A stretch of 64,000 bases of DNA. Source: Cytobacillus oceanisediminis. GTDB taxonomy: Bacteria > Bacillota > Bacilli > Bacillales > Cytobacillaceae. Below are positions 26,894 to 43,434 of this stretch, in pieces; position 1 is the first letter of the stretch, and each line of letters opens with the position of its first letter. A program made the position numbers and the translations under genes. A model generated the notes under the pieces. It saw only the letters and a list, made by a program, of their open reading frames with translations. It ran no database searches and had not been told where the DNA came from. The stretch lies in the NCBI RefSeq assembly GCF_004366035.1, contig NZ_SOEE01000002.1, positions 558,001-622,000 on the forward strand, in the 5' to 3' direction.

Positions 26894-27397
26894 TTATCTT
26901 ATAACTTCAAATTTCACTTGAAAAGCCTTATGGTCAATTATTTTAAAACACTTTATACTAGTCTTCCTATTTGCGAATGAAATAATAAAATAGGCTGCTG
27001 CGGGATCATGAAAGTTTCTGATGTCATCTCTTGAAGGCAATGGGGCTGCGGAAGGATGTGAATGGTACATGCCTGTCATAGTTTGAGAGAATTTTTTCAT
27101 TTCAGTTAAGGCAGCTGAGACCTGTTTCATATCCATTGCAAAAGAAGTTGGACTTTTTTCCGTACTCCTAATTTTCCACATCATCTCGTTTCGGCCATGT
27201 TGACCGGAAAGAAGCCCACATGCTTCATAAGGAAGCTCTTCTCTGCAATGATTAATCATTTCATTCAAAACCGAACGATTTATATAAACAACATTTTTGT
27301 TGTAAAAGTCAAATTTATGGTTAACGGCCGCAGCAGCTCCTGCGTCTGGGTTGAGTGGCACTCGCAGTTCCCGAAACATAGATTTTTTTCTTGCCAT
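26894..27397 (-). CDS. M67-family JAMM/MPN+ metallopeptidase
   Basis: A 167-residue zinc peptidase or isopeptidase of the JAB/MPN+ type. The conserved glutamate is in LPYEACGLLSG, and the zinc motif HSHPxxxxxPSxxD is complete in YHSHPSAAPLPSRDD. The frame's first ATG (27397) lies inside the preceding small gene, giving a 77-base overlap in a different frame. No strong ribosome site is seen at either candidate ATG, so translation is probably coupled and the first ~30 residues (Ala-rich) are uncertain. It is the last gene of a three-gene minus-strand unit with a coiled-coil protein. Bacterial JAMM enzymes cleave protein-modifier or sulfur-carrier C-termini or process protein partners; the target here is unknown. 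Confidence 0.85.
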   Translation of the reverse strand: MARKKSMFRELRVPLNPDAGAAAAVNHKFDFYNKNVVYINRSVLNEMINHCREELPYEACGLLSGQHGRNEMMWKIRSTEKSPTSFAMDMKQVSAALTEMKKFSQTMTGMYHSHPSAAPLPSRDDIRNFHDPAAAYFIISFANRKTSIKCFKIIDHKAFQVKFEVIR

Positions 27398-27524
27398 TGC
27401 TCGATGTTTGTTTTAATTCTTGATTTTTCCCTTTTAAAAGCCCTGATGCTTTCTTGGCCTTATTACCAGCTGGGAATTTTCTCGCTTTTTTAAAACTTTC
27501 ATAAAATTTTTTCGGTGTTTCCAC
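27321..27524 (-). CDS. small Lys-rich protein with CCGR tail, 67 aa
   Basis: The GTG at 27524 is preferred for the GGGAGTGG site 5 bases upstream. The product is strongly basic (KKFYESFKKARKF, KNQELKQTSSNGKKK) and ends RRRSCCGR. It lies 28 bases after the coiled-coil gene and overlaps the JAMM peptidase gene by 77 bases. I know no family for it. It could be a small structural or substrate protein of the neighbouring peptidase. It is also possible that only one of the two overlapping frames is translated in the shared stretch. Confidence 0.55.
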   Translation of the reverse strand: METPKKFYESFKKARKFPAGNKAKKASGLLKGKNQELKQTSSNGKKKIYVSGTASATQPRRRSCCGR

Positions 27525-27552
27525 TTCAACCACTCCCGTTAGTTTTTTATTT

Positions 27553-28989
27553 TTAGTATTTAAAAGGATTAAAAACACTGCTCTGCGATCGAGCCTGAGG
27601 GTAGAATTTCTGGATTAAATCCAGTTTGTTCTGAGCTCGCTGCTGACTTGGATTCATTTGTCTTGGCTGATTATTCATATTCCTTTGCATTCCATTTGCA
27701 TTAGAGGTCCTGGACCTCCTAATGGAGCTTTGTTTTTGTTCAAATTGTCTCATTTCTGTTCTTTGGCTGCGTTGAGCATTTGCATTTTGCTGCTTCATCT
27801 TTTTCGATATTTTTTCCTTCTTCTGCATTTTCTGCGGAGGTAATGAAGATTGGTTATTCATATTTTCATATTCTTTTAACTGCTGCGATTTTGCATCCAG
27901 CTCTTCTTTCAAAAGATCCAATTCTGAAATCTTTTTTTCAAGACTAATATTTTTCTGCTTATATTCCTGAATCTCATCTTTGAGCTGCTGGATTTCATAT
28001 AAATACTCATCTTCACTGCCAGCTATGGCCTGCAGATTTTCCTTTAAGTCAACCATTTCCTGCAGATAAAGTTCTTCATTTTTTTCATACTGGTCAAATT
28101 GCTTACTAAGCTTTTCCAGAACTTCTTCATATGAACTAACCGTAGCTTTCAATTCATTGATGGTACTTTGTAATTCTGCTGTTTTTTCCAAATACTGAGT
28201 TTGTTTATCTCCATTAAGCCAATTCCAAGCCAACTCTAACCAACTCCCTCTCTTTATGTTATTCATGTCCATTTCATGATGAATAGGCATAATAATCCCT
28301 TTTACTGCCCAATTTTCATGGAATACCTGATAATCGCTGCCCAACTTCTGTATCCTCAGATAGTCCTTTTTCTTTAAGTCCGTTAATTGGTTAATCTTTC
28401 TTTCAATTAGTTCAATGCTCTGCTTTTTATCTGGTCCCTTTTGAGTTACAGGGTATGAAGCCCCTGGTTCTAAGCTTCTTGCTTCACGATTTAACTGGTG
28501 ACGCACTTTTTTATTTCCTTTTCCATTTTTTCGCTGAAGTGCGTTCTTGTAAAACTGTGTTCTTTTTTCGTGAATAGCAGCCAAATGTTTATAATCGGAT
28601 ATTTCTCTTTTCATTTGTTTCTTTTGTAAAACAAACTCTTTAATCATTAAGTCTTTTTTCTTTTTATCTTTTCTCCATTTTCCCTCCTCGAGGCGAAGAT
28701 GTTTTAAATAATGCCTGATTTCTCCAATGATCATTTCTGTTTGGAGGAGAGCATCGTGCGGGTTATTAAATTTCTCCTTATGGACTGAGAAGCTGAGAGT
28801 CTTTTGATTTGTTATCCCTTTATTCTTATTCAAGGAAATCTTATTATCTTGGTCATTTTGTAAACTTTTTCTGTTTGGCTGTATATCATGTTTGGAGGAA
28901 AAAAGTCTGTCTTGAAGATTTTTCATCTCACACGAGTATCGTTGCCAATTGCCGTTCCTCACTAATACAACTTTGGCCCTTTTCAACAT
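27553..28989 (-). CDS. long coiled-coil protein, 478 aa
   Basis: A 478-residue protein with no signal peptide. The ATG at 28989 is chosen for the GGGAGGAG site upstream. The N-terminal ~240 residues are basic and helical (KKKKDLMIKEFVLQKKQMKR). Residues ~250-400 show heptad-like coiled coil (LEKTAELQSTINELKATVSS, LKDEIQEYKQKNISLEKKIS). The last ~90 residues are Gln/Asn/Arg/Met-rich and low in complexity (RNMNNQPRQMNPSQQRAQ), ending FNPFKY. Such basic Gln/Asn tails occur in spore coat and exosporium proteins, but this is only similarity of composition. It is the first gene of an operon with the small basic protein and the JAMM peptidase. Confidence 0.8.
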   Translation of the reverse strand: MLKRAKVVLVRNGNWQRYSCEMKNLQDRLFSSKHDIQPNRKSLQNDQDNKISLNKNKGITNQKTLSFSVHKEKFNNPHDALLQTEMIIGEIRHYLKHLRLEEGKWRKDKKKKDLMIKEFVLQKKQMKREISDYKHLAAIHEKRTQFYKNALQRKNGKGNKKVRHQLNREARSLEPGASYPVTQKGPDKKQSIELIERKINQLTDLKKKDYLRIQKLGSDYQVFHENWAVKGIIMPIHHEMDMNNIKRGSWLELAWNWLNGDKQTQYLEKTAELQSTINELKATVSSYEEVLEKLSKQFDQYEKNEELYLQEMVDLKENLQAIAGSEDEYLYEIQQLKDEIQEYKQKNISLEKKISELDLLKEELDAKSQQLKEYENMNNQSSLPPQKMQKKEKISKKMKQQNANAQRSQRTEMRQFEQKQSSIRRSRTSNANGMQRNMNNQPRQMNPSQQRAQNKLDLIQKFYPQARSQSSVFNPFKY

Positions 28990-29113
28990 TTCACTCTCCT
29001 CCCTCTGCACAGATTCTTGATATATCTATATGTATTTATTTTTGTCACGTTACAAGCTTAAAGAACATTAAGTTATTACTACTTATGAGAATATTAAGAC
29101 CGAGGTGTTAACC

Positions 29114-29716
29114 ATGGAAAAGATTTATCTTCTAGATGAGTTTTTAACTGTTCCGTATTTGGAGGAACTCGTGAAAAGCATTGGTTTGAAAATGGTAAAT
29201 CCCCCGCCACAAGAGCTTGAAGAGACCCTAAAATATTATAAACAGTGTTTAAGAGGCTCACTTGACGAGCCATACATCATGACTGATCACCAAAAAGCTA
29301 AAGTGAGAATTCCGCTAAACCAAGACGAGTACTATTGCATGGAATGGAACATGACGAAGCTGAAGTATCTTATAAAACGAGAACAAATAAAAAAAGTGGA
29401 AGTCACAGAAAAGATCATTGCTTCTTCTCTCCCGGCTCAATGCGAAGGCAATAAAGATGATAATTTGACACTGCTATCCTTCCCTCCAATCACAAGCAAA
29501 TATATCCTTGCTGAAGGAAATAAGGAAAACATAAGCACCGAAAAAAAAATATGGGATGCCTATCTGATCCAGCCTCAAATACATCTTCAGGCAGTGACCC
29601 GTTCCATTTATAGGAATTTATTTGCTATCCATTTTAATTATTCCCTTATATGCAGTTATGTCGCCGGGCAGCTTACCCTTAAAGAAGTGGAAGCGAGAGT
29701 ACTTCCAGTTATATAA
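29114..29716 (+). CDS. hypothetical protein, 200 aa, beside glycosyltransferase
   Basis: The ATG at 29114 has GAGGTG 6 bases upstream. The product is soluble and mixed alpha/beta, starting MEKIYLLDEFLTVPYLEELV, with a central TDHQKAKVRIPLNQDEYYCM segment. No membrane helix or known catalytic motif was found. Twenty-one bases separate it from a glycosyltransferase gene on the same strand, so the two form an operon, divergent from the coiled-coil/JAMM operon. A role in substrate recognition or surface assembly is possible but unsupported by motif. Confidence 0.7.
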   Translation: MEKIYLLDEFLTVPYLEELVKSIGLKMVNPPPQELEETLKYYKQCLRGSLDEPYIMTDHQKAKVRIPLNQDEYYCMEWNMTKLKYLIKREQIKKVEVTEKIIASSLPAQCEGNKDDNLTLLSFPPITSKYILAEGNKENISTEKKIWDAYLIQPQIHLQAVTRSIYRNLFAIHFNYSLICSYVAGQLTLKEVEARVLPVI

Positions 29717-29737
29717 CATTAAAGGAGTGAGATAAAT

Positions 29738-30622
29738 TTGCTTGCTTCCATTATCTTTCCTGTTAAAAACGAAGGAAACAACGTAAAAAACACTCTTGAA
29801 TCTTTTTTCTCTGCGGAGATTAACTTTCCATATGAAATTATTATTGTAAATGACCAGTCTGATGATCATTGCTGTGATTTTCTTCAGGATCAGTTTTTGG
29901 ATAAAAACATCACAGTGGTGAATACACCAGGTGTAGGAGCAGCAAATGCAAGAAATGCAGGAGCAGAAAAAGCAAATGGGAACATTCTTGTATTTTGTGA
30001 TGCACACCTGGAATTTGAAGATTTGTGGCTCGACAGGCTGCTTGAATCAATTCTTGATGGGACCTGCGATTCCATTACCCCCGCCATTGGTGCTATAGGC
30101 AATCCCAATTTTATCGGGTATGGCCAAACACTATGGGTAAATGAAAGATCTAATAAATTCAGGACCCACTGGAATACCAAAAGGGATCATCTATTTGAAA
30201 CAGCCATTTTGCCAGGAGGGTGCTTTGCGATCAGAAGAGATGTATTTGAGGATGTGGAAGGATTTGAAACAGGGTTTCCGACTTGGGGTCATGAAGATGT
30301 GGAACTTTCTATTAAGCTCTGGTTATTCGGCTACAATTGTTATGTTCAGCCGGAAACGAAAGTACTGCATTTATTTAGGAAAGTACAGCCCTACAAAATC
30401 GAAATGGAAGATTACTACTATAACCTATTAAGACTTGCCTATCTGCATTTTAATCCCAGCCGCATTCAAAAAATCCGTAAAATGATGGTAAAGCATACAA
30501 AGTCAAAAGCCGTGGAAAATAGAGTGATTCAGAATGGGGCGATGGAGAAGAAACAGGTTTATTTGAAGAAAAGGAAATTTGATGATGATTGGTATTTTCG
30601 GAGGTTTGGGATTGAGTTTTGA
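29738..30622 (+). CDS. family 2 glycosyltransferase, GalNAc-transferase-like
   Basis: A 294-residue GT-A enzyme. The TTG at 29738 follows AAAGGAG. It begins SIIFPVKNEGNNVKNTL and has the UDP-binding EIIIVNDQSDDH. The metal motif is CDAHLEFEDLWLDRLLESI, a DxH form like that of polypeptide GalNAc transferases rather than the usual DxD. The later GGCFAIRRDVFEDVEGFETG and FPTWGHEDVELSIKLWLFGY also match that group, where GWExxE positions the acceptor. It may therefore glycosylate a protein. The C-terminal ~60 residues are basic. The acceptor is unknown; surface or coiled-coil proteins nearby are candidates. Confidence 0.88.
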   Translation: MLASIIFPVKNEGNNVKNTLESFFSAEINFPYEIIIVNDQSDDHCCDFLQDQFLDKNITVVNTPGVGAANARNAGAEKANGNILVFCDAHLEFEDLWLDRLLESILDGTCDSITPAIGAIGNPNFIGYGQTLWVNERSNKFRTHWNTKRDHLFETAILPGGCFAIRRDVFEDVEGFETGFPTWGHEDVELSIKLWLFGYNCYVQPETKVLHLFRKVQPYKIEMEDYYYNLLRLAYLHFNPSRIQKIRKMMVKHTKSKAVENRVIQNGAMEKKQVYLKKRKFDDDWYFRRFGIEF

Positions 30623-30705: not shown

Positions 30706-31869
30706 CTAGACGTTATTGCTAAATCCCTTCCTTAAAATATCCGCTACTTCGGGCCTTGTAATTTCAGGTGGAAGCTGCTCTCCATTTCTTAGCATCTCCC
30801 TGACTTTGGTGCCGCTTAGAAAAAAGCGGTCCTCTTCTAAGTGAGGACATGTCTTAGCGGACGCCATATTCATGCATTTTTTACAAAAAAAACTATGTTC
30901 AAAAAATATCAGTTTAATTCCAATTTTGTCCGGGTCAAAATTGGAAAATATTTTTTGAGCATCATAAGTTCCATAATAATTTCCGACACCTGCATGATCT
31001 CTTCCGACAATGAAGTGTGTACACCCATAATTCTTGCGGATAATGGCATGATGCACAGCTTCCCTCGGGCCTGCATAGCGCATAGCTCCCGGATAGATTA
31101 CCAACCTAACCCGTTCCTTCGGATAATAATTATCCAGCAATACACTGTAGCTTTCCATTCTGATATCTGCTGGTATATCATCCCCTTTTGTTTCTCCAAC
31201 CAGCGGATGAAGTAAAAGGCCATCTACAATCTCCAAGGCACACTTTTGCAGGTATTCATGAGCCCGATGTACTGGATTACGTGTCTGGAAGCCAACGATT
31301 GTGCTCCATTTTAAGTCATTGAACATTTTTCTTGTTTCAGCTGGTTCTTTTAGATAGTCTTCAAATGGTGCGTGTGAAGGCTGATTAAGTGCATAAACTG
31401 GACCTGCAACATAAATATCCCCTTGGGTATTTAATTTCTTCACACCAGGATGATGTTGATCGTTTGTGCCGTAAACCTTCAATGCCTCATATTCTTTGTT
31501 GTAACTATATATCTCCCCTATTTTAATAACTCCATAGGGTTTATTGTCTTTCCCTCTTAGGAGGACTTCATCTCCTATTTTAAGTTGTTCAGCCTCCTTT
31601 TTATCAAGGGGAAGTGTGATGGGTATTGTCCAGGGAAGACCGCTTGTGAGATGCATGTTTTCCAATACACTGAGGTATTCCTTTTGATTCATAAACCCGC
31701 AAAGTGGACTGTAACCGCCATTTGTAATTAGTTCAATATCAGATATAGTCCAATTCGAAATTGAAATATAAGGCATGGAATCTTGTTTTGATAAATATTT
31801 TTTTCTCTCCCCTTTAGATAACCTCCCGTTTACTAAAGTTCCTCCATGAGGTTCTATATTTGAATTCAT
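30706..31869 (-). CDS. sat: sulfate adenylyltransferase (ATP sulfurylase)
   Basis: A 387-residue enzyme making adenylyl sulfate (APS) from ATP and sulfate. Active-site motifs are QTRNPVHRAHEYL and VGRDHAGVGNYYG. Four cysteines in FFCKKCMNMASAKTCPH near residue 335 resemble the zinc-binding loop of bacterial single-chain enzymes. Full length. The ATG follows AAGGAGGG. It is the last gene of a minus-strand unit with APS kinase and a TauE/SafE transporter. No APS or PAPS reductase lies nearby, so the product appears to go to PAPS rather than to sulfite. Confidence 0.97.
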   Translation of the reverse strand: MNSNIEPHGGTLVNGRLSKGERKKYLSKQDSMPYISISNWTISDIELITNGGYSPLCGFMNQKEYLSVLENMHLTSGLPWTIPITLPLDKKEAEQLKIGDEVLLRGKDNKPYGVIKIGEIYSYNKEYEALKVYGTNDQHHPGVKKLNTQGDIYVAGPVYALNQPSHAPFEDYLKEPAETRKMFNDLKWSTIVGFQTRNPVHRAHEYLQKCALEIVDGLLLHPLVGETKGDDIPADIRMESYSVLLDNYYPKERVRLVIYPGAMRYAGPREAVHHAIIRKNYGCTHFIVGRDHAGVGNYYGTYDAQKIFSNFDPDKIGIKLIFFEHSFFCKKCMNMASAKTCPHLEEDRFFLSGTKVREMLRNGEQLPPEITRPEVADILRKGFSNNV

Positions 31870-31888
31870 TTTTTCCCTCCTTAACTAT

Positions 31889-32482
31889 TTACAGAAATCT
31901 TTTTAGATACTCATAAAGAGATTCAGTACACTCTTTTATTGAATTTTTCGAAGTCTCTAGGATGATTTCTGGATTCTCAGGCACTTCGTAAGGCGAAGAA
32001 ATCCCTGTAAACTCTTTGATTTCCCCTTTTTTTGCCCTTTGGTATAAGCCCTTTGGATCTCTTTTTTCGCACTCTTCCAGGGAGCAATTGACATACACTT
32101 CAATAAACTCGTCCTTATCAACCATATCTCTGACCAGTTTACGCTCTGAAGCGAATGGTGATATAAAGGTAACCAGTACCACAATTCCGCTCTCGACAAA
32201 TAACTTTGCTACCTCTCCGATTCTCCGAATATTTTCTTTTCGATCTACTTGACTAAACCCTAAATCGCTATTTAGTCCCTGCCGGATATTATCTCCATCC
32301 AAGATATAAGTGGAGATTCCTTTTGAGTTCAGAATTTCCTCTAGTTCATTTGCAAGTGTTGTCTTTCCCGATCCGGATAAACCAGTAAACCAAATAATCA
32401 TGCTATTATGTCCATGGAGTACTCTTCGTTTCTCCTTTGTTACTTTAAATATAGGAGCAAATAAATTCTTTTCTTGATCCAT
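31889..32482 (-). CDS. cysC: adenylylsulfate kinase
   Basis: A 197-residue kinase that phosphorylates APS to PAPS, the universal sulfate donor. It shows the P-loop WFTGLSGSGKTTLA, the LDGDNIRQGLNSDLGFSQVDRKENIRR block, which covers APS binding, and the EVYVNCSLEECEKRDPKGLYQRA lid region. The ATG follows AAGGAGGG. It is 19 bases from the sat gene and 32 bases from the transporter gene. Confidence 0.97.
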   Translation of the reverse strand: MDQEKNLFAPIFKVTKEKRRVLHGHNSMIIWFTGLSGSGKTTLANELEEILNSKGISTYILDGDNIRQGLNSDLGFSQVDRKENIRRIGEVAKLFVESGIVVLVTFISPFASERKLVRDMVDKDEFIEVYVNCSLEECEKRDPKGLYQRAKKGEIKEFTGISSPYEVPENPEIILETSKNSIKECTESLYEYLKRFL

Positions 32483-32514: not shown

Positions 32515-33375
32515 TTAGCCTTTATTATTTTTTTTAATTGTAAAAATTATAGCTATTAGCCAAAGTATAAAAAGACAGGCATATAAAAGGTAAGATAGTG
32601 TCACTTCTATATCTGCCAGATTGATAATCGTATGAAAATTGGTTATGATAATTACTCCCCCTACTGCTACTCCAAGGATGTATGAAGGCAGTTTCCTTAC
32701 GAGCCATGCTGCAATAGGGGCGGCGAACATCCCGCCTATCATTAAAGCAATAACCCAAAACCAATCAAATTCCTGCCAGCCTAAAGATATTAGAAAACCT
32801 GCAGTAGCTGATAATGCTATTACAAATTCACTCGTATCAACAGTTCCAATCACTTTTCTTGGAACTGTGTCTTTTTGGGCCAGAAGAACAGGTGTGGTAA
32901 TGGGACCCCAGCCGCCTCCACCGGTAGCGTCAGCAAACCCTCCTAACAGACCGAGGATCGCCGCCTTTTTGTTTGATAGCTCAATACCCCTATTCTCATT
33001 ATAGGCATTCTTCAAAAACAAAAAGCGGAACAAAATGTAAAATCCCAATGATAATAAAAAGACAGAGATAAAGGGCCTGACAGCTTCTCCTGGTATATTG
33101 CTTAAAAAACAGGCTCCTATAAATGCTCCTACACCGCCGGGAAGAATTAATTTTAATACTGTCCCCCTGTCTACGTTCCCAAACTTAAAGTGAAAAAACC
33201 CTGAGGCAGCAGTCGTTACCACTTCAGACATATGAATACTGGCAGATGCTACTGCAGGGGCCATACCTAACATTAAAAGCAAAGAGGAGGAGGTAACCCC
33301 ATAAGCCATTCCCAGAGATCCGTCAATTAATTGGGCAATGAATCCAACAATTGTGACAGTAAGTAATTTTCTCAA
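32515..33375 (-). CDS. TauE/SafE-family sulfur-anion transporter
   Basis: A 286-residue membrane protein with eight or nine helices. It carries the two family repeats with GLLGGFADATGGGGWGPITTPV and the N-terminal FIAQLIDGSLGMAYGVTSSSLLL. TauE/SafE proteins move sulfite, sulfoacetate or other sulfur anions; next to Sat and CysC, sulfate or sulfite transport is most likely. The TTG at 33375 follows TTGGAGC. As the first gene of the tauE-cysC-sat unit, its promoter must lie just upstream. Confidence 0.92.
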   Translation of the reverse strand: MRKLLTVTIVGFIAQLIDGSLGMAYGVTSSSLLLMLGMAPAVASASIHMSEVVTTAASGFFHFKFGNVDRGTVLKLILPGGVGAFIGACFLSNIPGEAVRPFISVFLLSLGFYILFRFLFLKNAYNENRGIELSNKKAAILGLLGGFADATGGGGWGPITTPVLLAQKDTVPRKVIGTVDTSEFVIALSATAGFLISLGWQEFDWFWVIALMIGGMFAAPIAAWLVRKLPSYILGVAVGGVIIITNFHTIINLADIEVTLSYLLYACLFILWLIAIIFTIKKNNKG

Positions 33376-33473: not shown

Positions 33474-33503
33474 AAAAAAAATGCCGGGAATTTTACTTCC
33501 CGG
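33474..33503 (-). terminator. intrinsic terminator of 135-aa gene
   Basis: CCGGGAA / TTCCCGG (33484-33490 with 33497-33503) followed by eight T on the minus strand. Confidence 0.9.
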
Positions 33504-33507
33504 AAAT

Positions 33508-33915
33508 TTATAATTTAATCATATTCTTAAAATTTGAAGCAAAAGCATTTATATCTGGATACTTTTCTAATTCCTCAAGAATTTCCAGTACCTGTGTTCT
33601 GTTATATGGAATATTTTCTAGTAAGTTTGTTAAATTTTTTTCATGCCAAAGTTTTGCAGCTATTTGCCGAAACACTTTATTAAATAAGTTTGAAATTCCT
33701 TTAAATTTATTAGAATAACCTTCTAGGAATTTCAAATAAGAATCATATATTAAATGTACATTTGGAACAGTTATGCCCAGGAAGTGTATAACAAACATTC
33801 GTAATTGCACTTCAGAATATTTGTTGAATACTCTCACAAAGTTTTTTATCGCATCATGAGGATTAGACTTTGCAACAGGGTGTTCTTGATGATAAGCAAC
33901 TAACCCATTATTCAA
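33508..33915 (-). CDS. hypothetical helical protein, 135 aa
   Basis: The TTG at 33915 is chosen because AAGGAG lies 8 bases upstream; the GTG at 33924 overlaps that site. The product is soluble, basic and helical, ending ILEELEKYPDINAFASNFKN. No membrane helix or known motif. It sits between the sulfate operon and the glycosyltransferase of the sugar operon, in its own unit with a terminator. Function unknown. Confidence 0.65.
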   Translation of the reverse strand: MNNGLVAYHQEHPVAKSNPHDAIKNFVRVFNKYSEVQLRMFVIHFLGITVPNVHLIYDSYLKFLEGYSNKFKGISNLFNKVFRQIAAKLWHEKNLTNLLENIPYNRTQVLEILEELEKYPDINAFASNFKNMIKL

Positions 33916-34082
33916 ACTACTCACTCCTTAAGCTAATAATTATAGAATCAAGATTATTATTTATCGTTAATAGAAAGCCGCCTATAAAGATATTTTTAAA
34001 ATAACTGTTGGCACTTTCTCGTCAGTAAAGTAAGCCGCAAAGCAAACAGTAGACAGCCCTTACTTAAAAGCTGTTTCAAGAT

Positions 34083-34850
34083 TTAACTAAATTTATTTTT
34101 CAAATACTGGTCCATCTCCTCTTTGTGTTGTAATTTTACCCTTTCTGTTTCCTCTAACACATCATTCATAAAGAGCTTTGTTCCCATATTCCTATGAACT
34201 CTATATAAGGTGAGCGGAATATTTAAATGTCCAATTTCATATTTTAAAAAAACCCTGATCCAATAATCATAATCATTTGCATATACCAGGGACTCATTAA
34301 ATAACCCTACTCTTTCAATAACATCTCTCCGCATCATAATTGTGGAACCATTTATCGGACAGCCCATTCTTAAACTATTTAGCAGCTCATCATGTGAAAA
34401 ACCTGCAGGGCCAACAGAATTAGAGATAATTCTATTCTCTTCGTTTATGCAAAAGTAATTGGTATAGGAAAACAAAAAATTTTCATTCCTCATGAAATTT
34501 AATTGCGTTTCCACCTTGGTAGCAAAAAATAAGTCGTCTGAACTTAGCCATACAATGTAATCCCCTGTCGAATTTCTAATTCCCTCATTTAAAGCCGAGG
34601 CAGTTCCGCCATTTTTTTTTCTAATATAGATAATTTTGTCCTTAAGCGGTTTTATCATCGGAAAGTGATGAGTGGATCCATCATCAACCACAATAACTTC
34701 TATATTTTGATACGTTTGTTTTAAAGCACTGGTAATTGCTCTTGCAACGAACCTACAGTTATAGAATGGAATAATAATTGATACGAGAGGGCTTTCTTTG
34801 TGTTCCACTGTGATTTCAATCCTTTCTAACCCGAATCGGGTGAACATCAT
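34083..34850 (-). CDS. family 2 glycosyltransferase
   Basis: A GT-A fold enzyme of up to 255 residues. It starts its domain with LVSIIIPFYNCRFVARAITS, has IEVIVVDDGST, the metal site VWLSSDDLFF (Asp-Asp) and RMGCPINGSTIMMRRDVIERVG. A C-terminal ~40 residues with KLFMNDVLEETERVKLQHKE follow. The start is uncertain: ATG 34850 and 34847 or GTG 34808 (with AGAAAGGA) are all possible. It lies 228 bases after the nucleotide-sugar operon and probably uses its product. Confidence 0.85.
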   Translation of the reverse strand: MMFTRFGLERIEITVEHKESPLVSIIIPFYNCRFVARAITSALKQTYQNIEVIVVDDGSTHHFPMIKPLKDKIIYIRKKNGGTASALNEGIRNSTGDYIVWLSSDDLFFATKVETQLNFMRNENFLFSYTNYFCINEENRIISNSVGPAGFSHDELLNSLRMGCPINGSTIMMRRDVIERVGLFNESLVYANDYDYWIRVFLKYEIGHLNIPLTLYRVHRNMGTKLFMNDVLEETERVKLQHKEEMDQYLKNKFS

Positions 34851-36005: not shown

Positions 36006-36817
36006 TCTCTAAGATCAAATAGCATTTCCTCATAAGCTGAAACTTCATACTTTTTATAATTGCTTCTTGTATTAATAATGGTCCTGTCCTGTCTTATTTC
36101 ACTATCTGGCTGAATTATAACGTCATTTTTATTAAAAATGTCTTTGATCAAAATCAGCAATGCAAATTTTGATATCTTTTTATCGGATGATAAGTGATAT
36201 AATCCCGTAATATTCTGCTTAATCATCCAATCAATTGCCTTTGCTAATTCAAGAGTTGTAACACCATTCCAATAAACTTCCTTATATCCCTTAATAGTCC
36301 CTTTTTGCCTCATAAACCATAAAAATAGGCCGATTCCGGAATCTTTTAATTCTGGACCTATTATAGAAGTACGAATGGTTAAATGCTTATCGCTTATGAT
36401 TTCTCCAAGCTGCTTTGATTGAGCGTAAACAGAAGTGCCATCTGGTATGTCATATTCCGTATAATTTCCTTTAGTTCCTAAAAAAACACAATCCGTACTA
36501 ATATGAATCAGTTTGCCATTGTACCGCTCTGTAAATTTGACTAACTGATGCGGAAGCAAGCTATTAACCTGAAAGGCAAGCTTTTGATTATTTGCTGCAA
36601 AGTCATTTAATATCCCGATACAATTTATAATTATATCTGGTTTTTCATTATTGATGACCTCTTCAAGCATCAATGAATCTGTGATATCTAGATAGATTCC
36701 ATCTTTATCTTCTTTATTCCTTGAAGTATAAATAACGTCATATAGCGGCTGCCTTTGAAGATAATCAACTATCATATGGCCAGCCATCCCTTTTCCTCCA
36801 AGGACTAATACCTTCAT
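35987..36817 (-). CDS. RmlD-like 4-keto-sugar reductase
   Basis: A 276-residue NAD(P)H-dependent reductase. It has VLVLGGKGMAGHMIVDYL, IINCIGILNDFAANN and the catalytic triad region STDCVFLGTKGNYTE with YAQSKQLGE (Tyr-x3-Lys). It is one domain, without the C-terminal cupin of CapF/FnlB. That size and similarity to RmlD fit WbvR-type reductases of the L-QuiNAc/L-RhaNAc route better than the FucNAc route. It starts one base after the dehydratase gene ends. Confidence 0.85.
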   Translation of the reverse strand: MKVLVLGGKGMAGHMIVDYLQRQPLYDVIYTSRNKEDKDGIYLDITDSLMLEEVINNEKPDIIINCIGILNDFAANNQKLAFQVNSLLPHQLVKFTERYNGKLIHISTDCVFLGTKGNYTEYDIPDGTSVYAQSKQLGEIISDKHLTIRTSIIGPELKDSGIGLFLWFMRQKGTIKGYKEVYWNGVTTLELAKAIDWMIKQNITGLYHLSSDKKISKFALLILIKDIFNKNDVIIQPDSEIRQDRTIINTRSNYKKYEVSAYEEMLFDLREWMKEK

Positions 36818-37804
36818 CTATATAAACCTGCCTTTCCTTAAAATTCCCCTGATTTCATCCTTGCTCATTAGGTCTTTGCTGGAATTATAGTTTAAAAGAT
36901 TAACCGGTTTATAATTAGCATATTTTTCTTTTAAGCCATCAATATGAATACTTGGCAAAATGACAAAATACTCTTCATCATATGCAATTGTTGTTTCACT
37001 TTCATATTCTGAAAGGAGAAGTTCATGTATCTTCTCTCCAGGCCTGACACCCAGAATGTCAACCTCTATTCCTTTTTTTCCCATATCCTCTGATAAAACA
37101 TGAGCAAGATCTAGAATTTTACATGCCGGCATCTTCATAACAAAAATCTCCCCGCCCATACTCTCAAAAGTGGCTTTGAATACCAGCTTGATAGCTTCTT
37201 CAATTGTTAAGAAAAATCTTGTCATTGCAGGATCAGTAATACCAATCCTTCCTTTTTCCTGTATTTGTTTCTTAAAGACATGGATTACACTTCCATTTGT
37301 TCCAAGAACATTTCCACCTCTTATGCAAACAAATTTAGTGTCTGTGTTAAGAGTATTGGCGTGGATGATCAGCCTTTCCCCCATTGCTTTAGATAAACCA
37401 TAAAAATTGGAGGGATTTGCCGCTTTATCAGTTGAAATATAGACAACTCTTTTTACCTTGTTTTCAATGGCTGCTTCAATAACATTTTGTGTTCCGTGAA
37501 CATTAGTTTTCAATGCTTCTAGTGGCTGATACTCACATACTGGTACATGCTTCAGGGCAGCAAGGTGAAAAACATAATCAACACCCTCAGATGCTTCCAT
37601 GATAATTTCTTTTTCTTTAATATCTCCGATTACAAAATGAAGCAGCGGGTTATTGTCAAATTCTTGCTTCATCAAAAATTGGTTAGATTCGTTCCTGGAA
37701 AAAATTCTTATCTCCTTAGGATTATAATCCAAAAGCTGCCTAACAAGTTCATAACCCCAAGAACCCGTTCCTCCAGTAATTAAAATTGTCTGGTTCTTAA
37801 ACAA
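36818..37804 (-). CDS. UDP-GlcNAc 4,6-dehydratase/5-epimerase (CapE/WbjB type)
   Basis: A 328-residue enzyme of the polysaccharide biosynthesis CapD-like group. Seen are TGGTGSWGYELVRQLL, FVIGDIKEKEII, the active region YISTDKAANPSNFYGLSKAMG with a Tyr-x3-Lys pair, and a late MTRFFLTIEEAI segment. It should convert UDP-GlcNAc to UDP-2-acetamido-2,6-dideoxy-4-keto-L-hexose. The TTG at 37804 overlaps the end of the epimerase gene (TTGTTTAA) and follows GGGAGG. Confidence 0.9.
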   Translation of the reverse strand: MFKNQTILITGGTGSWGYELVRQLLDYNPKEIRIFSRNESNQFLMKQEFDNNPLLHFVIGDIKEKEIIMEASEGVDYVFHLAALKHVPVCEYQPLEALKTNVHGTQNVIEAAIENKVKRVVYISTDKAANPSNFYGLSKAMGERLIIHANTLNTDTKFVCIRGGNVLGTNGSVIHVFKKQIQEKGRIGITDPAMTRFFLTIEEAIKLVFKATFESMGGEIFVMKMPACKILDLAHVLSEDMGKKGIEVDILGVRPGEKIHELLLSEYESETTIAYDEEYFVILPSIHIDGLKEKYANYKPVNLLNYNSSKDLMSKDEIRGILRKGRFI

Positions 37805-38888
37805 CTTCCATGCCTCCCATCAATAATTTCACCACTTTATCAGAAACACCAGTCTCGCCATATCCCTCAGGCAAAGGCCAGTCTCTCTCTCCATTCAGCA
37901 TTACATTTACACAATTTAATATCTTTCCAGAGTCAATACCTGATAGAACATTGCTTCCGCAATCAATTGTTTCAGGCCTTTCAGTTGTCCGACGTACTGT
38001 AACCGTGGGGACACGAAAAATACAGCACTCCTCCTGGACAGTTCCACTATCAGTTAAAACACATAACGCCTTTTGCTCCAATTGAACAAAATCAAAGAAA
38101 CCAAAAGGTTCATGAAATTCAACAAAGGTATTTAGCCTAAATGATTCAAGCTTTTGAAGCTTGGATTTGGTTCGGGGGTGTATACTGCAGATGATTCTTT
38201 TCCGGTAAACCTCTGCCACCCTGTTGATTCCATTCATGATTTCTCTTAGGTGGCTTATATTATCTACATTCTCAGCCCTGTGAATTGTTGCCAAAAAGTA
38301 TTCCTCTTCCTTTAGACCAAGTGACTTAATTATTTGACTCTGCTCAATACTGGTTTTATAAGCACTTAATACTTCTTTTATTGGGTTTCCAGAAAGGATG
38401 ATTCTATTTTTTGGAAATCCTTCTCTCATTAAATTTTCTTTGCTTTGTGGTGTATAAGGCATATTAAAACTGGCAATAGCATCGATTATTTTTCGGTTCT
38501 TTTCTTCCGGAACATCCAGATCGAAACACCGATTCCCCGCTTCCATATGAATAACCGGGATTCCCATTCTCTCTGCCAGGATGGCACTTAATCCGCTATT
38601 TGTATCTCCAAGCACCAAAACCTTATCCGGCTTTTCTTTTAGAAGGATATTTTCTAATTGATTAAACATATTTCCAAGCTGCCCACCTAAAGTGGCCTGT
38701 TTTTTCGATAAGAAATAATCTGGTTCCCTGATCTTTAATTCCCGAAAAAACAGGTCGCTTAATGACTCAGTAAAGTTTTGGCCAGTATGGACAAGTATGT
38801 GTTTCGAGGCAAGCAAATCAAGTTTTTTAATAATAAGGCTAAGACGAATTATTTCTGGTCTTGTCCCCAAAATTGTCATAATCCTCAC
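37797..38888 (-). CDS. UDP-GlcNAc 2-epimerase family (CapG/FnlC/WbvD type)
   Basis: A 363-residue nonhydrolysing 2-epimerase with a GT-B fold. It has TILGTRPEIIRLSLI, VLGDTNSGLSA with IPVIHMEAGNR, the catalytic-site LATIHRAENVD and LTDSGTVQEECCIF near the C-terminus. The GTG at 38888 is chosen for the AAAGGAG site 8 bases upstream. It is the first gene of the nucleotide-sugar operon; in the L-FucNAc and L-QuiNAc routes a WecB-type enzyme inverts C2 as the last step. Confidence 0.92.
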   Translation of the reverse strand: MRIMTILGTRPEIIRLSLIIKKLDLLASKHILVHTGQNFTESLSDLFFRELKIREPDYFLSKKQATLGGQLGNMFNQLENILLKEKPDKVLVLGDTNSGLSAILAERMGIPVIHMEAGNRCFDLDVPEEKNRKIIDAIASFNMPYTPQSKENLMREGFPKNRIILSGNPIKEVLSAYKTSIEQSQIIKSLGLKEEEYFLATIHRAENVDNISHLREIMNGINRVAEVYRKRIICSIHPRTKSKLQKLESFRLNTFVEFHEPFGFFDFVQLEQKALCVLTDSGTVQEECCIFRVPTVTVRRTTERPETIDCGSNVLSGIDSGKILNCVNVMLNGERDWPLPEGYGETGVSDKVVKLLMGGMEVV

Positions 38889-39018
38889 TTTGTGCACTCC
38901 TTTCAGCTAAAATCATTATTTCAATTCGTCCCTATTAACCTATTCATATATCTTTGATTTGAATAGGTTTGTATCATCTATTTAAGTTAATTTTTTTGCT
39001 GTCAAAATAGATTCTTTG

Positions 39019-39045
39019 AAAAAAAAAGAAGGGTTGCCCCTTCTT
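39019..39045 (-). terminator. intrinsic terminator of cysteine-containing protein gene
   Basis: AAGAAGGG / CCCTTCTT stem with a 4-base loop, followed by a run of T on the minus strand. Confidence 0.9.
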
Positions 39046-39072
39046 CACATAGTTATTTGTTTATTCATAGAA

Positions 39073-40299
39073 TTAATCATCTAGTAAATTAGGGAAAGTA
39101 ACACAATCCTGTACAACCAGATCTTCATCCGGTACAAATCCTAATCCTGCTGCAGCAAATGTCACCAATGGTAATCCCGCAAGATCAGTAAGAACAATGG
39201 CATAAGCATCTGGGGCAGCACCGATGTTTTCAATCAGTGTCAATGTGAACAAAACAGTACGATCAGCTACACCAGGATCTGCAAAGCTTACAGTACCTGA
39301 ACCTTCGACAGTCATAGTTGTAATTCCTAAAACTTCTGTACATTCCGGCATTCCAATTTCTGCAGCAGTAAACGTGAAGCTTTGATCCACAGTTCCTGTT
39401 CCTGTTCCTGTTGGAACTACGAAATCTTCTACAATCCACGAAATGGTGCTTCCACTCAATTGACAGTTGTCGCAAATTTCGGCGTTTAGTTCAGTAGTAA
39501 ATGACCCTGCAACTAATGGTGCATCAAAAAGAATTCCTGCGAAGGTAATATCAACAGGACCAGTCAATGGATCAGTATCCACAAACGCCTGGCAATCACA
39601 GTTGTCACGCGGGAAGAAGTCACATTGTGCAGGCCACTCGAATTCCGGACAAACGCCGTTAGTAGGAAGTTCAATGTCATTTGGACGCGGGAAGCAGAAT
39701 TTAGCAAGTACTTCTAGTTTTACGTCTGCTTCTACTTGAATCTCGAAACAGATATCCAGCATAACCTGAAGGCCAAGGTCTGGATCTCCAGTTTCGATGA
39801 AGTTAGTGTCACAGTCTAGTGAAATTAAACGGCAGAACACGTTATCAGCTGTAAACGGTTCTGGAGCACATACAACTAGACGGCGGGATTCACTGATAGT
39901 CGGACGGAATTGGCAGATGATAGCGCCTGTGCTATCAAAAATAGTAATGAGTGGTCTGATAGTGAAGATGACTTTTACAATGGCCACTTCTACTAATCTT
40001 CCACCAAGAGTAATTTCACGTCTTTCGATTCTGGAAGATACTGTGCACAATGCGTTTCCATCCGTATCTGGAGGAGTCAGCGGGAAGAATCCTCCTACAT
40101 CCGGAACCTCACATGTTACATCCAGAGGTGTTCTTCCATCAGCAACCGCTGCAGCGACTGCAGCTGCGCAATCATCCGGCAAGGTTATTCCTGTGTCTTT
40201 AGAGATAGCATCAAAAACCCAGTCATAAACCTTGGATACCCGAATACATTCTTCTTGAACGTTATTAGGAGTCAATTGGGATCCTCTAATAGGTTTCAA
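39073..40299 (-). CDS. cysteine-containing putative surface/spore protein, 408 aa
   Basis: A 408-residue acidic, beta-rich protein with about 20 cysteines and no signal peptide or membrane helix. The TTG at 40299 follows AAAGGATG. The N-terminus has NNVQEECIRVSKVYDWVFD, a Cys-x-x-Val-x-Lys-Val-Tyr-Asp-Trp-Val motif that I recall from uncharacterised spore-surface-type proteins. A middle part holds paired Cys (RDNCDCQAF, AEICDNCQLSG). The C-terminal part is a beta-rich acidic domain with a GTGTGTVD run. Absence of a secretion signal with many cysteines suggests assembly from the mother-cell side of a spore. A candidate sigma-K-like promoter lies at 40336-40361. Confidence 0.7.
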   Translation of the reverse strand: MKPIRGSQLTPNNVQEECIRVSKVYDWVFDAISKDTGITLPDDCAAAVAAAVADGRTPLDVTCEVPDVGGFFPLTPPDTDGNALCTVSSRIERREITLGGRLVEVAIVKVIFTIRPLITIFDSTGAIICQFRPTISESRRLVVCAPEPFTADNVFCRLISLDCDTNFIETGDPDLGLQVMLDICFEIQVEADVKLEVLAKFCFPRPNDIELPTNGVCPEFEWPAQCDFFPRDNCDCQAFVDTDPLTGPVDITFAGILFDAPLVAGSFTTELNAEICDNCQLSGSTISWIVEDFVVPTGTGTGTVDQSFTFTAAEIGMPECTEVLGITTMTVEGSGTVSFADPGVADRTVLFTLTLIENIGAAPDAYAIVLTDLAGLPLVTFAAAGLGFVPDEDLVVQDCVTFPNLLDD

Positions 40300-40335
40300 G
40301 CAAATCATCCTTTCTAATAGGTTGTGTTTTCACTT

Positions 40336-40361
40336 CATAGTATGGATATATTTAGAATTGT
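40336..40361 (-). promoter_or_regulatory. candidate sigma-K-like promoter
   Basis: Read on the minus strand: AC, 15 bases, then CATACTATG. The sigma-K consensus is AC, 15-17 bases, CATANNNTA; the last pair differs. Offered as a hint only. Confidence 0.3.
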
Positions 40362-40395
40362 GTTCTAATCAAATAGCCTGTTTTTGTTGATTCTC

Positions 40396-40424: not shown

Positions 40425-40462
40425 GGTGTTACAAATGCAATTGATAAAAGGAGACTGTACAC

Positions 40463-41647
40463 ATGACCTATTCTGTTTTTATTGATGGCGAACTTTTAGG
40501 CAAAGCTCTCTATCAGTCAGCAGTTAGCCTGGCATTATTTTGTGAGCAACAGGGATTTGAAGCAGTTATTGATCAAAACAAAGAAACCATTAATATTGAA
40601 ACCGGAAGAAAGCAGCACCCTATCTCAATTTCATCTCGTTCAAAGAACCAGCCGAGCAAGGACGCTGTTCTAAAATTGAATGATATTCTTAAAGCTGAGG
40701 GTTTGGATCTTTTGAAAGAACCAAGTATCACAATATTTTTGGATAGCATTGACCAGCAGTATTCTGATCAGCAATTGATCATTGAACATAATGTTCTTCT
40801 TGATGAAAGGCTAAAAAATCTTCTAATTATAGAGTTCAATAAAGCAAAAATACCTTTTGTATTAAATGAAAAGAAAAATTTAGCTGCTGATGGGAAACAG
40901 CAATTAGCCTTCAGATCTCAATTTAACGAAAATGATCGACTAATAGTAAGCATATCTCGTGCGTTTATCAGGTACTGCAGCGTTAAACCTAATGCAAATA
41001 ATTCGGCTATAGTGCCAATGCCACTTATAAAGTCCTGGATAAGCTCCTTGTTAGATCAAACATCACTGACTAAAACACAAGAAAAGAAAGCAGCACCAAA
41101 GGTTCCTGAAAAAACCATTAAACCCGAAAAGAATAAAAATATCTCAGCAGTCAACAGTCAAGACCTACGATTAAAGAAAGCAAATGCTGAAGTTTTCCTA
41201 AATTACACAATGCTCATTCCAAGACCGGATGATGAACAAAAAGAGTATATGGTGAACGGTTCAATCATAATGAAAAACACTGGAGATCTCGATTTAAAAA
41301 ATCCTGTCATCTGCATAAAAGTACCCACTGATTCAGGGGTCTCTTTACAGGGTCAGATTCTGCCGCCGAAACTTGTTGCAGGTCTCGCCATGAAGGGCAG
41401 TGATGGAGAAAAAGGCTGGAAATATGTATATGATGACTGGAGAGAAAGAGTGAAAACCAAAGGAGAATATTGGATAACTTCCATTCAGGATTTAACCATT
41501 CCACCCGGAGGTTCTGAGGCATTTAACGGATTAAAGGTCCTCATAAGAGAGCCTAAAAATTCCTCGGTCGGTATCCATGCATTTGTATATTTTAATGAAG
41601 GGAAACAACAATACGCTTCCAACAACACCATTTCACTTTCATTTTAA
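40463..41647 (+). CDS. two-domain protein of unknown function, 394 aa
   Basis: A 394-residue soluble protein. The N-terminal ~200 residues are alpha/beta and resemble in outline an amidase or copper-amine-oxidase-like fold, but no metal or catalytic residues can be assigned. A Lys/Pro-rich linker (PKVPEKTIKPEKNKN) follows. The C-terminal ~150 residues are beta-rich, with IMKNTGDLDLKNPVICIKVP, in the style of cell-surface Ig-like domains. No signal peptide. The ATG follows AAAGGAG. It is divergent from the cysteine-containing protein gene and ends at its own terminator. A candidate sigma-K-like promoter is at 40396-40424. Confidence 0.7.
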   Translation: MTYSVFIDGELLGKALYQSAVSLALFCEQQGFEAVIDQNKETINIETGRKQHPISISSRSKNQPSKDAVLKLNDILKAEGLDLLKEPSITIFLDSIDQQYSDQQLIIEHNVLLDERLKNLLIIEFNKAKIPFVLNEKKNLAADGKQQLAFRSQFNENDRLIVSISRAFIRYCSVKPNANNSAIVPMPLIKSWISSLLDQTSLTKTQEKKAAPKVPEKTIKPEKNKNISAVNSQDLRLKKANAEVFLNYTMLIPRPDDEQKEYMVNGSIIMKNTGDLDLKNPVICIKVPTDSGVSLQGQILPPKLVAGLAMKGSDGEKGWKYVYDDWRERVKTKGEYWITSIQDLTIPPGGSEAFNGLKVLIREPKNSSVGIHAFVYFNEGKQQYASNNTISLSF

Positions 41648-41676
41648 GCCTGTTTTAAACAGGCTTTTTATTTTGC
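41645..41676 (+). terminator. intrinsic terminator after 394-aa gene
   Basis: AAGCCTGTTT / AAACAGGCTT (41647-41656 with 41657-41666) followed by TTTTATTTTG. Confidence 0.9.
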
Positions 41677-41742
41677 ACAATCTGCCTATCAGCACATAGG
41701 ATAATACCAAATGCTCTAATTGTAAGGTTAGGAGGGCACATC

Positions 41743-42669
41743 ATGTTGAATGCACCATTCATAAAAGAAGATGGGAAACAGGACAATAGAATTCTTCAGC
41801 AAAAGGTTATTTACCTTACTGCTGAAATCTCAAAATATAAAAATAAGATTAAGGATTACCAGGAAAATTATCATTACAGTCAATTGGAAACCTTGAAAAA
41901 TGAAAATCAATACTTAAAGGAACAAATACAAAAAAAACAGCAGGATGAATTAGATATTAAAGAAGAACTTAGTTCTGCAATCGCCCACTATAAAAAGAAC
42001 CTGAAAGAACTTTCTTCTAAAGAAGCAGATTACCTCGTTAAGATTGAAACACTAGATGAACAGATCCGGAAAAGTGAGAAGCTCATTTTAACCCTGCAGG
42101 AAAATAACACCTCTATACGTCAGGAAATTGAAGAGTTCCAAAAAAATAGACTCTACCTGCATAAACAACTTTCAGAAAAAGATTCTGAACTGATCAAGTT
42201 GAAAAATGAGAATGAACAACTCCAATCAAAGAATAATGAATTTAAAGACTTAATTGTTTACATGAGAGATGAATTGAACAATTACTCAAATCAATTAGCG
42301 ACAATCGAAAAAAAGGATCAGCTTATTATAGACGACCTGCAATATAACTTATCCATACAAAAAGCGGAAAATGAAAAGCTTCTTCTTGAAATACTGGAAT
42401 ACCGTACCTTAATTAGCGAATATGAAGATAAAATAATGACAAATGAAGCGTATATAGAAGAATTAAAAATAAAAGAAGATACAAACCTTCAGCTTCAACA
42501 GCAAAATGAGCAGCTGCAAGCATTAAACAGGGATTTATATGATGAAAATGTGTTGATGGAGCAAATACAAAAAGAAATAATTGCTCAATTACTATTAATT
42601 AGAGATGAAATCAAGGAATATCCAAACTCCCCTTTTAGATCGGTTGTTGTATCTAACAGTAAACTTTGA
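41743..42669 (+). CDS. coiled-coil protein, 308 aa
   Basis: A 308-residue protein that is almost entirely coiled coil. Heptad repeats extend from ~20 to ~290 (KVIYLTAEISKYKNKIKDYQ, LETLDEQIRKSEKLILTLQE-like units). It is Glu/Lys/Gln/Asn-rich with no Cys, signal peptide or membrane helix. The ATG follows TTAGGAGGG. A second coiled-coil gene follows after 63 bases on the same strand, so they are probably co-transcribed. It may be a scaffold protein. Confidence 0.78.
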   Translation: MLNAPFIKEDGKQDNRILQQKVIYLTAEISKYKNKIKDYQENYHYSQLETLKNENQYLKEQIQKKQQDELDIKEELSSAIAHYKKNLKELSSKEADYLVKIETLDEQIRKSEKLILTLQENNTSIRQEIEEFQKNRLYLHKQLSEKDSELIKLKNENEQLQSKNNEFKDLIVYMRDELNNYSNQLATIEKKDQLIIDDLQYNLSIQKAENEKLLLEILEYRTLISEYEDKIMTNEAYIEELKIKEDTNLQLQQQNEQLQALNRDLYDENVLMEQIQKEIIAQLLLIRDEIKEYPNSPFRSVVVSNSKL

Positions 42670-42732
42670 GGCAATGCTAAAAAATAAAGTTATGTGCAGA
42701 AAAGTTAGAAAATATCAGAAAGGAGAATGAAC

Positions 42733-43434
42733 ATGCTCCGCAATCATACCCCCAATTTGGATAGCCAGATACAGCAGAAAATCACTGAACTAAAATCAGA
42801 ATTAGCCAAATATCAATCCATGCTCAGCCCCTCTTTTAAAAGAGATGACTCAACAGAAGGCAAAAATAACATAAAGCAAATTACTGAATTGATCAATAAA
42901 AATGATATTTTGAGAAAGAAATTGGCTTCATTATCTGAAGAAAATAAAAAACAAAGTTCCTATTTGCATATATTACAGAAGTCAGTTTATGAGCTTCATA
43001 ATAAAGAATTAACTGAAGAATTTTTTATAAAAGAAGATAAAGACTTGATTTACAAATTAGAAAGCCGAATATATGAGCTTGAATTAGCGTTTTGGGAAAT
43101 GCATTGTAAAATTGAGAATTTGGAAAGGGAAAATGAAAGACTGATTAAATTACCTGAAAATGAAAATACACTTCACTTATTCCATAAATCAGATTCTGGT
43201 GACACCAGCAGTGAGATCATTGTATTAAAGGAAGAAAAGAGACTTGAACAGTTAGTAAGTATAGAAACGAACACAGTAACAGCCTTCAGCAATTCAACGC
43301 TTCAAAAAAAATTTTATGATGAAGCTGAAATTATTAACCCTTTAACTGACCGCAATATAGAGCTTGAAAGGGCTATAAAACTATTAGAGGGAAAAATTTT
43401 ATCATTAGAGAATAAAATGAATCATCAAGAATAA
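42733..43434 (+). CDS. coiled-coil protein, 233 aa
   Basis: A 233-residue coiled-coil protein. The second ATG at 42733 is chosen because AAAGGAG lies 7 bases upstream. Heptads occupy ~5-140 (IQQKITELKSELAKYQSML, LEREN) and again ~205-233 (ERAIKLLEGKILSLENKM). The middle is less regular. No membrane helix, signal or Cys-rich part. It resembles the neighbouring 308-residue protein in style, and both resemble the coiled-coil protein at 27.5-29.0 kb. Confidence 0.75.
   Translation: MLRNHTPNLDSQIQQKITELKSELAKYQSMLSPSFKRDDSTEGKNNIKQITELINKNDILRKKLASLSEENKKQSSYLHILQKSVYELHNKELTEEFFIKEDKDLIYKLESRIYELELAFWEMHCKIENLERENERLIKLPENENTLHLFHKSDSGDTSSEIIVLKEEKRLEQLVSIETNTVTAFSNSTLQKKFYDEAEIINPLTDRNIELERAIKLLEGKILSLENKMNHQE

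Follow-up and report, generated by a model that had tools for sequence, protein, structure and literature searches.

In Bacillus (Priestia) megaterium, a BMQ_0737-GFP fusion ranked among the outermost spore proteins, according to the available part of the report (PMC4656864). For the crust of B. subtilis spores, surface sugars and glycosyltransferases are tied to the crust proteins, and spore-surface glycans influence spore adhesion and hydrophobicity (accessible text of PMC10502511). The B. cereus group carries BclA/anthrose O-glycans on the outermost exosporium layer (PMC4996414), and cassette genes are lost in some of its strains (PMC7793302), as far as the available portions of these papers show. 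Here, we analyzed a stretch of 64,000 nucleotides (the window; contig NZ_SOEE01000002.1, positions 558,001 to 622,000) from a draft genome assembly of 5.84 Mb in 61 contigs (GCF_004366035.1), focusing on the block between 26894 and 43434, in which a BMQ_0737-type coat gene stands together with glycosyltransferase genes, a nucleotide-sugar operon and genes for the synthesis of 3'-phosphoadenosine 5'-phosphosulfate (PAPS). We propose, with a probability of roughly 0.6, that the block is a spore-surface biogenesis locus whose sulfation branch, orphaned in the window strain, may be functional in relatives.

The coat gene and its conserved core

The 411-aa, Cys-containing protein encoded at 39073..40308 (minus strand) matched NF052457, the BMQ_0737 family of morphogenetic spore coat proteins, with 118.3 bits against a cut-off of 71 (120.1 bits in the genome search), and is 94% identical to the copy of Cytobacillus oceanisediminis 2691 (NZ_CP015506.1, locus L003), the nearest named relative found. 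A search of PDB sequences with the coat protein returned nothing convincing (best E 0.006, a RecA chain). Two single-sequence structure predictions made for the locus reached pLDDT values of only 34.9 and 32.4. A preliminary description made from the sequence alone had placed the products of the block either on the spore surface or in a surface layer. Family membership, together with the outermost position that BMQ_0737 takes in B. megaterium, gives the spore-surface reading good support. The surface-layer (S-layer) alternative was rejected, as the Cys protein belongs to a coat family and family and domain scans of 20 window proteins (open reading frames, ORFs, within 26208-44800) turned up no anchoring domain (SLH or like) and neither an export nor an S-layer family.

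We searched for promoters of the sporulation factor sigma-K with the consensus AC-N14-17-CATANNNT. Such a site was present upstream of 35/41 coat-family genes, with 2.8 expected from dinucleotide shuffles; the 41 cases include a 127-aa overlapping ORF (G143) and an over-long ORF (G132), both without a site. Other ORFs of at least 150 aa in the same stretches had a sigma-K-like site in 65/590 cases (24.8 expected), and the labelled homologues of coiled-coil protein 2 in 5/12 (0.4 expected). In the window, the site of the coat gene (40336..40363, minus strand, last base 40336) consists of AC-15 or 17 bases-CATACTATG and, taken singly, is not significant (p ~0.46), while the site of coiled coil 2 (41677..41703, plus strand, last base 41703), AC-N16-CATAGGATA, matches at 8/8 positions (p 0.03, uncorrected, 17 genes tried). 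Since single sites in the window score weakly apart from that of coiled coil 2, the argument for sigma-K rests on the cross-genome comparison. The sigma-K control suggested in the preliminary description is retained, as a matter of sequence, for the coat family and coiled coil 2.

The coat-gene search covered 193 genomes of the taxonomic family, of which 36 were positive; 37 contigs from 34 genomes were examined, a set that does not include the G053 coat gene or the G033 matches. The coat family occurred in 192/397 genomes of the order, so that its presence alone is nothing special. Its neighbourhood was more informative: a JAMM gene was found within the examined stretch in 28/37 coat-gene contigs, with one more in a neighbouring stretch of G036, and a two-domain homologue in 30/37. 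In other genera, too, many genomes have the coat, JAMM and two-domain genes side by side, and not at the scattered, unrelated loci that would have refuted the preliminary description; this check did not refute it.

The window JAMM metallopeptidase (Prok-JAB; 26894..27397, minus strand, start codon uncertain; PF14464, E 3e-17) contains the HxHx7SxxD motif, which is complete in all labelled ORFs but one (28/29), a frame-broken piece in G048. That many genomes keep a JAMM gene linked to a coat gene leads to the question as to what a peptidase would cleave in the spore coat. The two-domain protein (394 aa; 40463..41647, plus strand) had no match among the families scanned or in PDB sequences; proteins of 163 aa that adjoin the coat gene elsewhere are similar to its C-terminal part and stand alone. 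The ORF list and family scan also placed three coiled-coil proteins, one with a Gln/Asn-rich tail (coiled coil 1; 27553..29010, minus strand) and two downstream of the two-domain gene (coiled coil 2, 41743..42669, and coiled coil 3, 42727..43434, both plus strand).

A GT2-type glycosyltransferase (29738..30622, plus strand; PF00535 and PF02709, a GT7C domain) has polypeptide N-acetylgalactosamine (GalNAc) transferases as its best solved relatives (2d7i, E 9e-20). It follows a gene for a 203-aa protein of unassigned function (29105..29716, plus strand), and the same pair was present in G001, G003, G004, G036, G047 and G048. Where present, the GalNAc-transferase-like gene accompanies the larger coat type (~370-430 aa), G108 being a case without a coat match. 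Its sequence makes this enzyme a natural candidate for an initiating step in which a glycan would be begun on the protein itself, inside the cytoplasm.

The core would accordingly comprise the coat protein, its two-domain partner, the JAMM peptidase and the coiled coils, joined, with the larger coat type, by the GalNAc-transferase-like enzyme and often its 203-aa partner. Produced by the mother cell at a late stage of sporulation, it would build an outer coat or exosporium layer, with the GalNAc-transferase-like enzyme probably putting the first sugar directly onto a coat protein in the mother-cell cytoplasm. The coat role follows from family membership and sigma-K control from sequence; the remaining roles in the core we infer.

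A scan for related loci returned one locus, that of C. oceanisediminis 2691. Outside the centre of the sugar cassette, the block is collinear with it at 78-98% protein identity; identity is lower for a glycosyltransferase tail (65%) and for the second glycosyltransferase (75%), and 2691 carries extra genes there. Genome G047 has a gene row identical in order to that of 2691. Based on this collinearity and the linkage counts, a chance neighbourhood was rejected. The ORF list and family scans placed every gene named in the preliminary description for 26894-43434 and added four that it had lacked: a TauE/SafE permease, the 203-aa protein, a small Cys-tailed protein and the ORF at 33508-33924.

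The small protein (~70 aa; 27321..~27533, minus strand) is flanked by coiled coil 1 and the JAMM gene, and its gene overlaps the listed JAMM start. It is basic, ends in Cys-Cys-Gly-Arg, matches its C. oceanisediminis counterpart at 100% identity across 69 aa and has homologues in G036, G001 and G003 (twice there); it may be an unannotated coat protein. On the other side, a LysM-NlpC/P60 cell-wall hydrolase gene (43799-44800) borders the locus, as it does in G034, G047, G048 and G052.

Sulfation genes in relatives and in the window strain

The window encodes an ATP sulfurylase (Sat; 30706..31869; NF003166, 567 bits, cut-off 387) and an adenosine 5'-phosphosulfate (APS) kinase (CysC; 31889..32482; TIGR00455, 271 bits, cut-off 139), both on the minus strand and 8.4 and 7.5 kb from the coat gene, respectively. 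They are a second set, because the genome holds another sat-cysC pair (locus L023) together with a PAPS reductase and a PHO4-family permease. The absence of a PAPS reductase from the block, as first described, holds; the reductase sits at L023. Beside CysC lies the TauE/SafE permease (32515..33375, minus strand; PF01925), which by its sequence is perhaps a sulfate importer.

In relatives, the same genes accompany sulfotransferases. The row of C. oceanisediminis 2691 runs coat-WecB-PseB-RmlD-SDR, an insertion element, a DUF4915 piece, and then glycosyltransferase-sulfotransferase-glycosyltransferase-604-aa glycosyltransferase-TauE-CysC-Sat, with all of the named genes on the same strand. The insertion element (L003:3189-4697) encodes a transposase with Mu-type C-terminal and rve domains. 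The sulfotransferase (L003:6468-7241) matched PF00685 with 51 bits and shares PKSGT-like (PKSST in the L003 copy) and RDxRD segments with three relatives; PDB sequences gave nothing at E 0.001. In G003, from another genus, the row is coat-WecB-PseB-RmlD-SDR-glycosyltransferase-sulfotransferase, followed by other genes and by glycosyltransferase-TauE-CysC-Sat.

The linkage of sulfotransferase and coat genes was analyzed across the 193 genomes of the family with PF00685 and PF03567 at E 0.001; the resulting list includes sub-cut-off matches (G061, G024) and fragments (G048), and PF13469, also searched (15/193 genomes), was kept out of the count. A sulfotransferase match was present in 43 genomes, the coat gene in 36 and both in 16. 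In 13 of these 16 the two lie at most 30 kb apart, with 0.2 expected for random placement on 5.3 Mb. The association of presence itself is mild (16 genomes with both, 27 with the sulfotransferase only, 20 with the coat gene only and 130 with neither; Fisher p 0.0014). Of the 36 coat-gene genomes, 13 have an APS kinase or a fused Sat-CysC no more than ~20 kb from the coat gene, one of them (G064) in two broken pieces and three (G043, G050, G055) as read from the gene rows; the APS kinase of G001, ~24.6 kb away and beyond the examined stretch, was not counted. An APS kinase gene was also found at most 30 kb from the sulfotransferase in at least 20/43 sulfotransferase genomes, five of the positions being rounded.

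In the cassette type with these genes, TauE would import sulfate, Sat and CysC would convert it to PAPS, and the sulfotransferase would sulfate the glycan; the gene content is present in relatives, and the activity is predicted from it. We consider it an even bet that in several Bacillaceae genera the outermost spore layer bears glycans sulfated through one such locus, the window strain being naturally sulfation-deficient. The proposed parts are a BMQ_0737-type coat protein, glycosyltransferases (in some cases with a GalNAc-transferase-like one), a sugar cassette open to exchange, a dedicated PAPS module and at least one sulfotransferase.

Further arrangements of these genes were observed. In genome G133, a fused ATP sulfurylase-APS kinase (L028:10432-12201) is encoded ~7 kb away from the coat gene; G143 and G153 have ORFs comparable in size and match, the fusion itself having been scanned in G133 only. 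In G056 (L018), a CitMHS/sodium-sulfate-type permease adjoins CysC and Sat, as if the permeases beside these genes were interchangeable. Locus L070 (G108:C1:870000-889900) combines Sat, CysC, WecB, PseB, RmlD, SDR, a sulfotransferase with a sigma-K-like site 71 bases upstream, a glycosyltransferase and a GalNAc-transferase-like gene, with no coat-family match. At L083 (G063:C36, ~17.4-21.3 kb), a PF03567 sulfotransferase, CysC, Sat and TauE are adjacent in a genome with no coat-family match, and this is a separate sulfation module. Weak Sulfotransfer_3 matches were seen in ORFs of 220-234 aa near the coat gene (L029:714-1385 in G133, 23.5 of 27 bits; G132:C31:31343; G156:C34:68543, a sub-cut-off PF13469 match 2 kb from the coat gene; and G064:C138:19852, over the cut-off), perhaps representing a divergent sulfotransferase in further coat loci.

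The window itself lacks the sulfotransferase that precedes the 604-aa glycosyltransferase in L003. That glycosyltransferase (L003:8051-9865) is represented by a C-terminal remnant of 133 aa (33508..33924, minus strand), 65% identical to residues 472-604 and without the GT2 domain, which spans residues 218-348. In the genome as a whole, no match was found at E 0.001 to PF13469, PF00685 or PF03567, other sulfotransferase families not having been searched, and none to a 28-sequence alignment that detects the single C. oceanisediminis copy with 156 bits. With the sulfotransferase and most of the neighbouring glycosyltransferase absent, the PAPS genes, although intact, most likely represent an orphaned branch, and sulfation by this strain is not supported. 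The sulfate proposed in the preliminary description therefore stands in part: the PAPS genes are real and intact and relatives carry a sulfotransferase at the locus, but the strain's own genome yielded no match. Sulfation is a good hypothesis for the relatives and is probably defunct in the window strain.

Several observations weigh against this interpretation. The 13 linked genomes belong to four genera and are related rather than independent; in the other three of the 16, the two genes are far apart (G001, G053) or on different contigs (G050). Moreover, 27/43 sulfotransferase genomes have no coat match and 20/36 coat genomes no PF00685/PF03567 match; the sulfotransferase is thus neither required by nor confined to coat loci, and sulfation would be an option and not part of the core. 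No excess of sigma-K-like sites was detected upstream of WecB (0/9), Sat (0/18), the GalNAc-transferase-like gene (0/13), JAMM (1/29) or CysC, so that the earlier suggestion of sigma-K control is not supported for them. Sulfotransferases had a site in 4/42 cases (1.4 expected), and TauE in 4/9, confined to four related genomes that share one site. Terminator-like hairpins in the region (22 sites, 13.3 expected) set the coat gene, the sugar operon and the PAPS operon apart, among them one after the coat gene (39025..39046, minus strand) and one between the remnant and TauE (33484..33503, minus strand), which leaves expression of the cassette during sporulation unproven. The PAPS genes have a dN/dS of 0.10-0.12, which looks like purifying selection and fits a recent loss but equally an undetected use. 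Finally, dS in comparison to C. oceanisediminis is 1.2 for the remnant and the second glycosyltransferase, 0.50-0.85 for PseB, TauE, SDR and RmlD, and 0.12-0.42 across the 12 remaining genes compared; this unevenness makes an exchange of cassette parts likelier than a plain deletion, so that speaking of a loss is itself an inference. A strict sigma-E pattern, from which we draw nothing for or against, had 0 matches before WecB, Sat, TauE, the sulfotransferase and the GalNAc-transferase-like gene, with 1/16 for CysC and 6/590 for other ORFs. The sulfotransferase of G048 is split, but the JAMM and coiled-coil genes of that genome are broken as well, so that a sequencing error is suspected. In the window, the missing enzyme might conceivably reflect an error in the draft assembly at that place.

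Alternatively, sulfation of the spore glycan could continue in the window strain through a sulfotransferase belonging to a family not recognised here; the 203-aa protein, or the product of a gene elsewhere, might fill this role. The reading frames of Sat, CysC and TauE are open and have the dN/dS of 0.10-0.12, GLSGSGKT and RNPVHRAH segments, typical of such enzymes, are present in the PAPS genes, and the 203-aa protein matched no family. The genome searches above, within the families they covered, argue in the other direction, and the 203-aa gene pairs with the GalNAc-transferase-like gene also in G036, the single APS kinase match of which is on another contig; we regard continued sulfation as unlikely. 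A little less probable still is that TauE-CysC-Sat provides sulfur during sporulation for Cys-containing coat proteins, through the PAPS reductase of the other operon and with no sulfation at all. The coat protein does contain Cys, and ~60% TauE relatives stand in sat/cysC rows of G025-G027 that look assimilatory by gene order; yet a set with its own PAPS reductase already exists at L023, no reductase is present at the window locus, and in relatives such genes accompany sulfotransferases. An orphaned sulfation branch remains the reading that we prefer.

Glycosyltransferases and the sugar cassette

Between the coat gene and the remnant, the minus strand encodes a UDP-HexNAc 2-epimerase (WecB-like; 37797..38897; TIGR00236, 277 bits, cut-off 210), a UDP-GlcNAc 4,6-dehydratase of the PseB/CapE/FnlA type (36818..37804; PF02719), an RmlD-like reductase (35987..36817; PF04321, under the rmlD cut-off), an SDR epimerase/reductase (35079..36005; PF01370) and a second GT2 glycosyltransferase (34083..34850; chondroitin synthase 2z87/2z86, E 1.5e-24; SpsA 1h7l, E 5e-9). 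WecB, PseB-like, RmlD and SDR genes occur together in G003, G044, G047, G050, G108, G132, G133 and G143, with WecB on the opposite strand in G108; in G048 the last two genes form one long ORF.

The dehydratase resembles 2gn4 (E 4e-76) and CapE (3vvb, E 7e-65) and scores below the equivalog cut-offs of both FnlA (270 of 730 bits) and PseB (330 of 408 bits). Judged from these matches, the product of the cassette is probably a UDP-6-deoxy-HexNAc. We did not assign the L-configuration given in the preliminary description, because both models remain below their cut-offs and the nearest solved enzymes are of both kinds. Glycosylation of the spore surface by this locus is likely, and a 6-deoxy amino sugar on the glycan is plausible from the enzyme families. 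The cassette enzymes would make the 6-deoxy-HexNAc nucleotide sugar and then lengthen the glycan; being made in the cytoplasm, such a glycan would need neither flippase nor polymerase.

Comparison with G036 revealed that the cassette between the core blocks is exchangeable among close relatives. The core of this genome is 93% identical for JAMM, 87% for coiled coil 1, 89% for the 203-aa protein, 89% for the GalNAc-transferase-like enzyme, 93% for the coat protein, 89% for the two-domain protein and 80% for coiled coils 2 and 3; between the core blocks it carries other genes, with neither TauE-CysC-Sat nor the WecB operon. Least probable among the alternatives is a cassette that serves a capsule or wall polysaccharide of vegetative cells and neighbours the coat gene by coincidence: the comparison of sigma-K-like sites showed no sporulation promoter for it and such sugar genes also serve capsules, but flippase and polymerase families, as stated in the preliminary description, and chain-length families had no match among the 20 scanned proteins, the linkage to the coat gene extends across four genera, and the core itself includes a glycosyltransferase.

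Comparison with known systems

No account of sulfated glycans on Bacillus spores turned up in a search of the open literature, which is weak evidence of novelty, as subscription papers were mostly outside the search; sulfated crust sugars are likewise not mentioned for B. subtilis in the available part of PMC10502511. If the proposed reading is true, spores would gain a strongly acidic, negatively charged surface chemistry, and sulfotransferases would have a new place in Gram-positive bacteria. C. oceanisediminis with the enzyme and the window strain without it would then form a natural test pair.

Among the closest described systems is BMQ_0737 of B. megaterium QM B1551, which shares the coat family over its cut-off and the family-wide sigma-K-like site; it differs in that sugar or sulfate genes are unmentioned with it in the accessible portions of PMC4656864 and PMC4674009. 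The sps/cge crust glycans of B. subtilis (rhamnose, quinovose, legionaminic acid) are similar in kind, and the second glycosyltransferase of the window matches SpsA; however, the crust depends on another sugar operon and another coat protein, while the window has PAPS genes and its relatives a sulfotransferase. In contrast to the BclA/anthrose system, no collagen-like protein was found among the 20 scanned window proteins, and the sugar genes are others.

Pathways of the CapE/FnlA/WbjB type make UDP-L-FucNAc or L-QuiNAc. The 4,6-dehydratase and 2-epimerase of the window belong to the same broad families, but here they stand with an RmlD-type reductase and an extra SDR, and the matches fall under the FnlA and PseB cut-offs. 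Sets of sulfotransferase and PAPS genes also exist for other bacterial glycans, with Sat, CysC, a permease and a sulfotransferase as neighbours. The same gene grouping is found in the relatives of the window strain, where it is tied to a spore coat gene instead.

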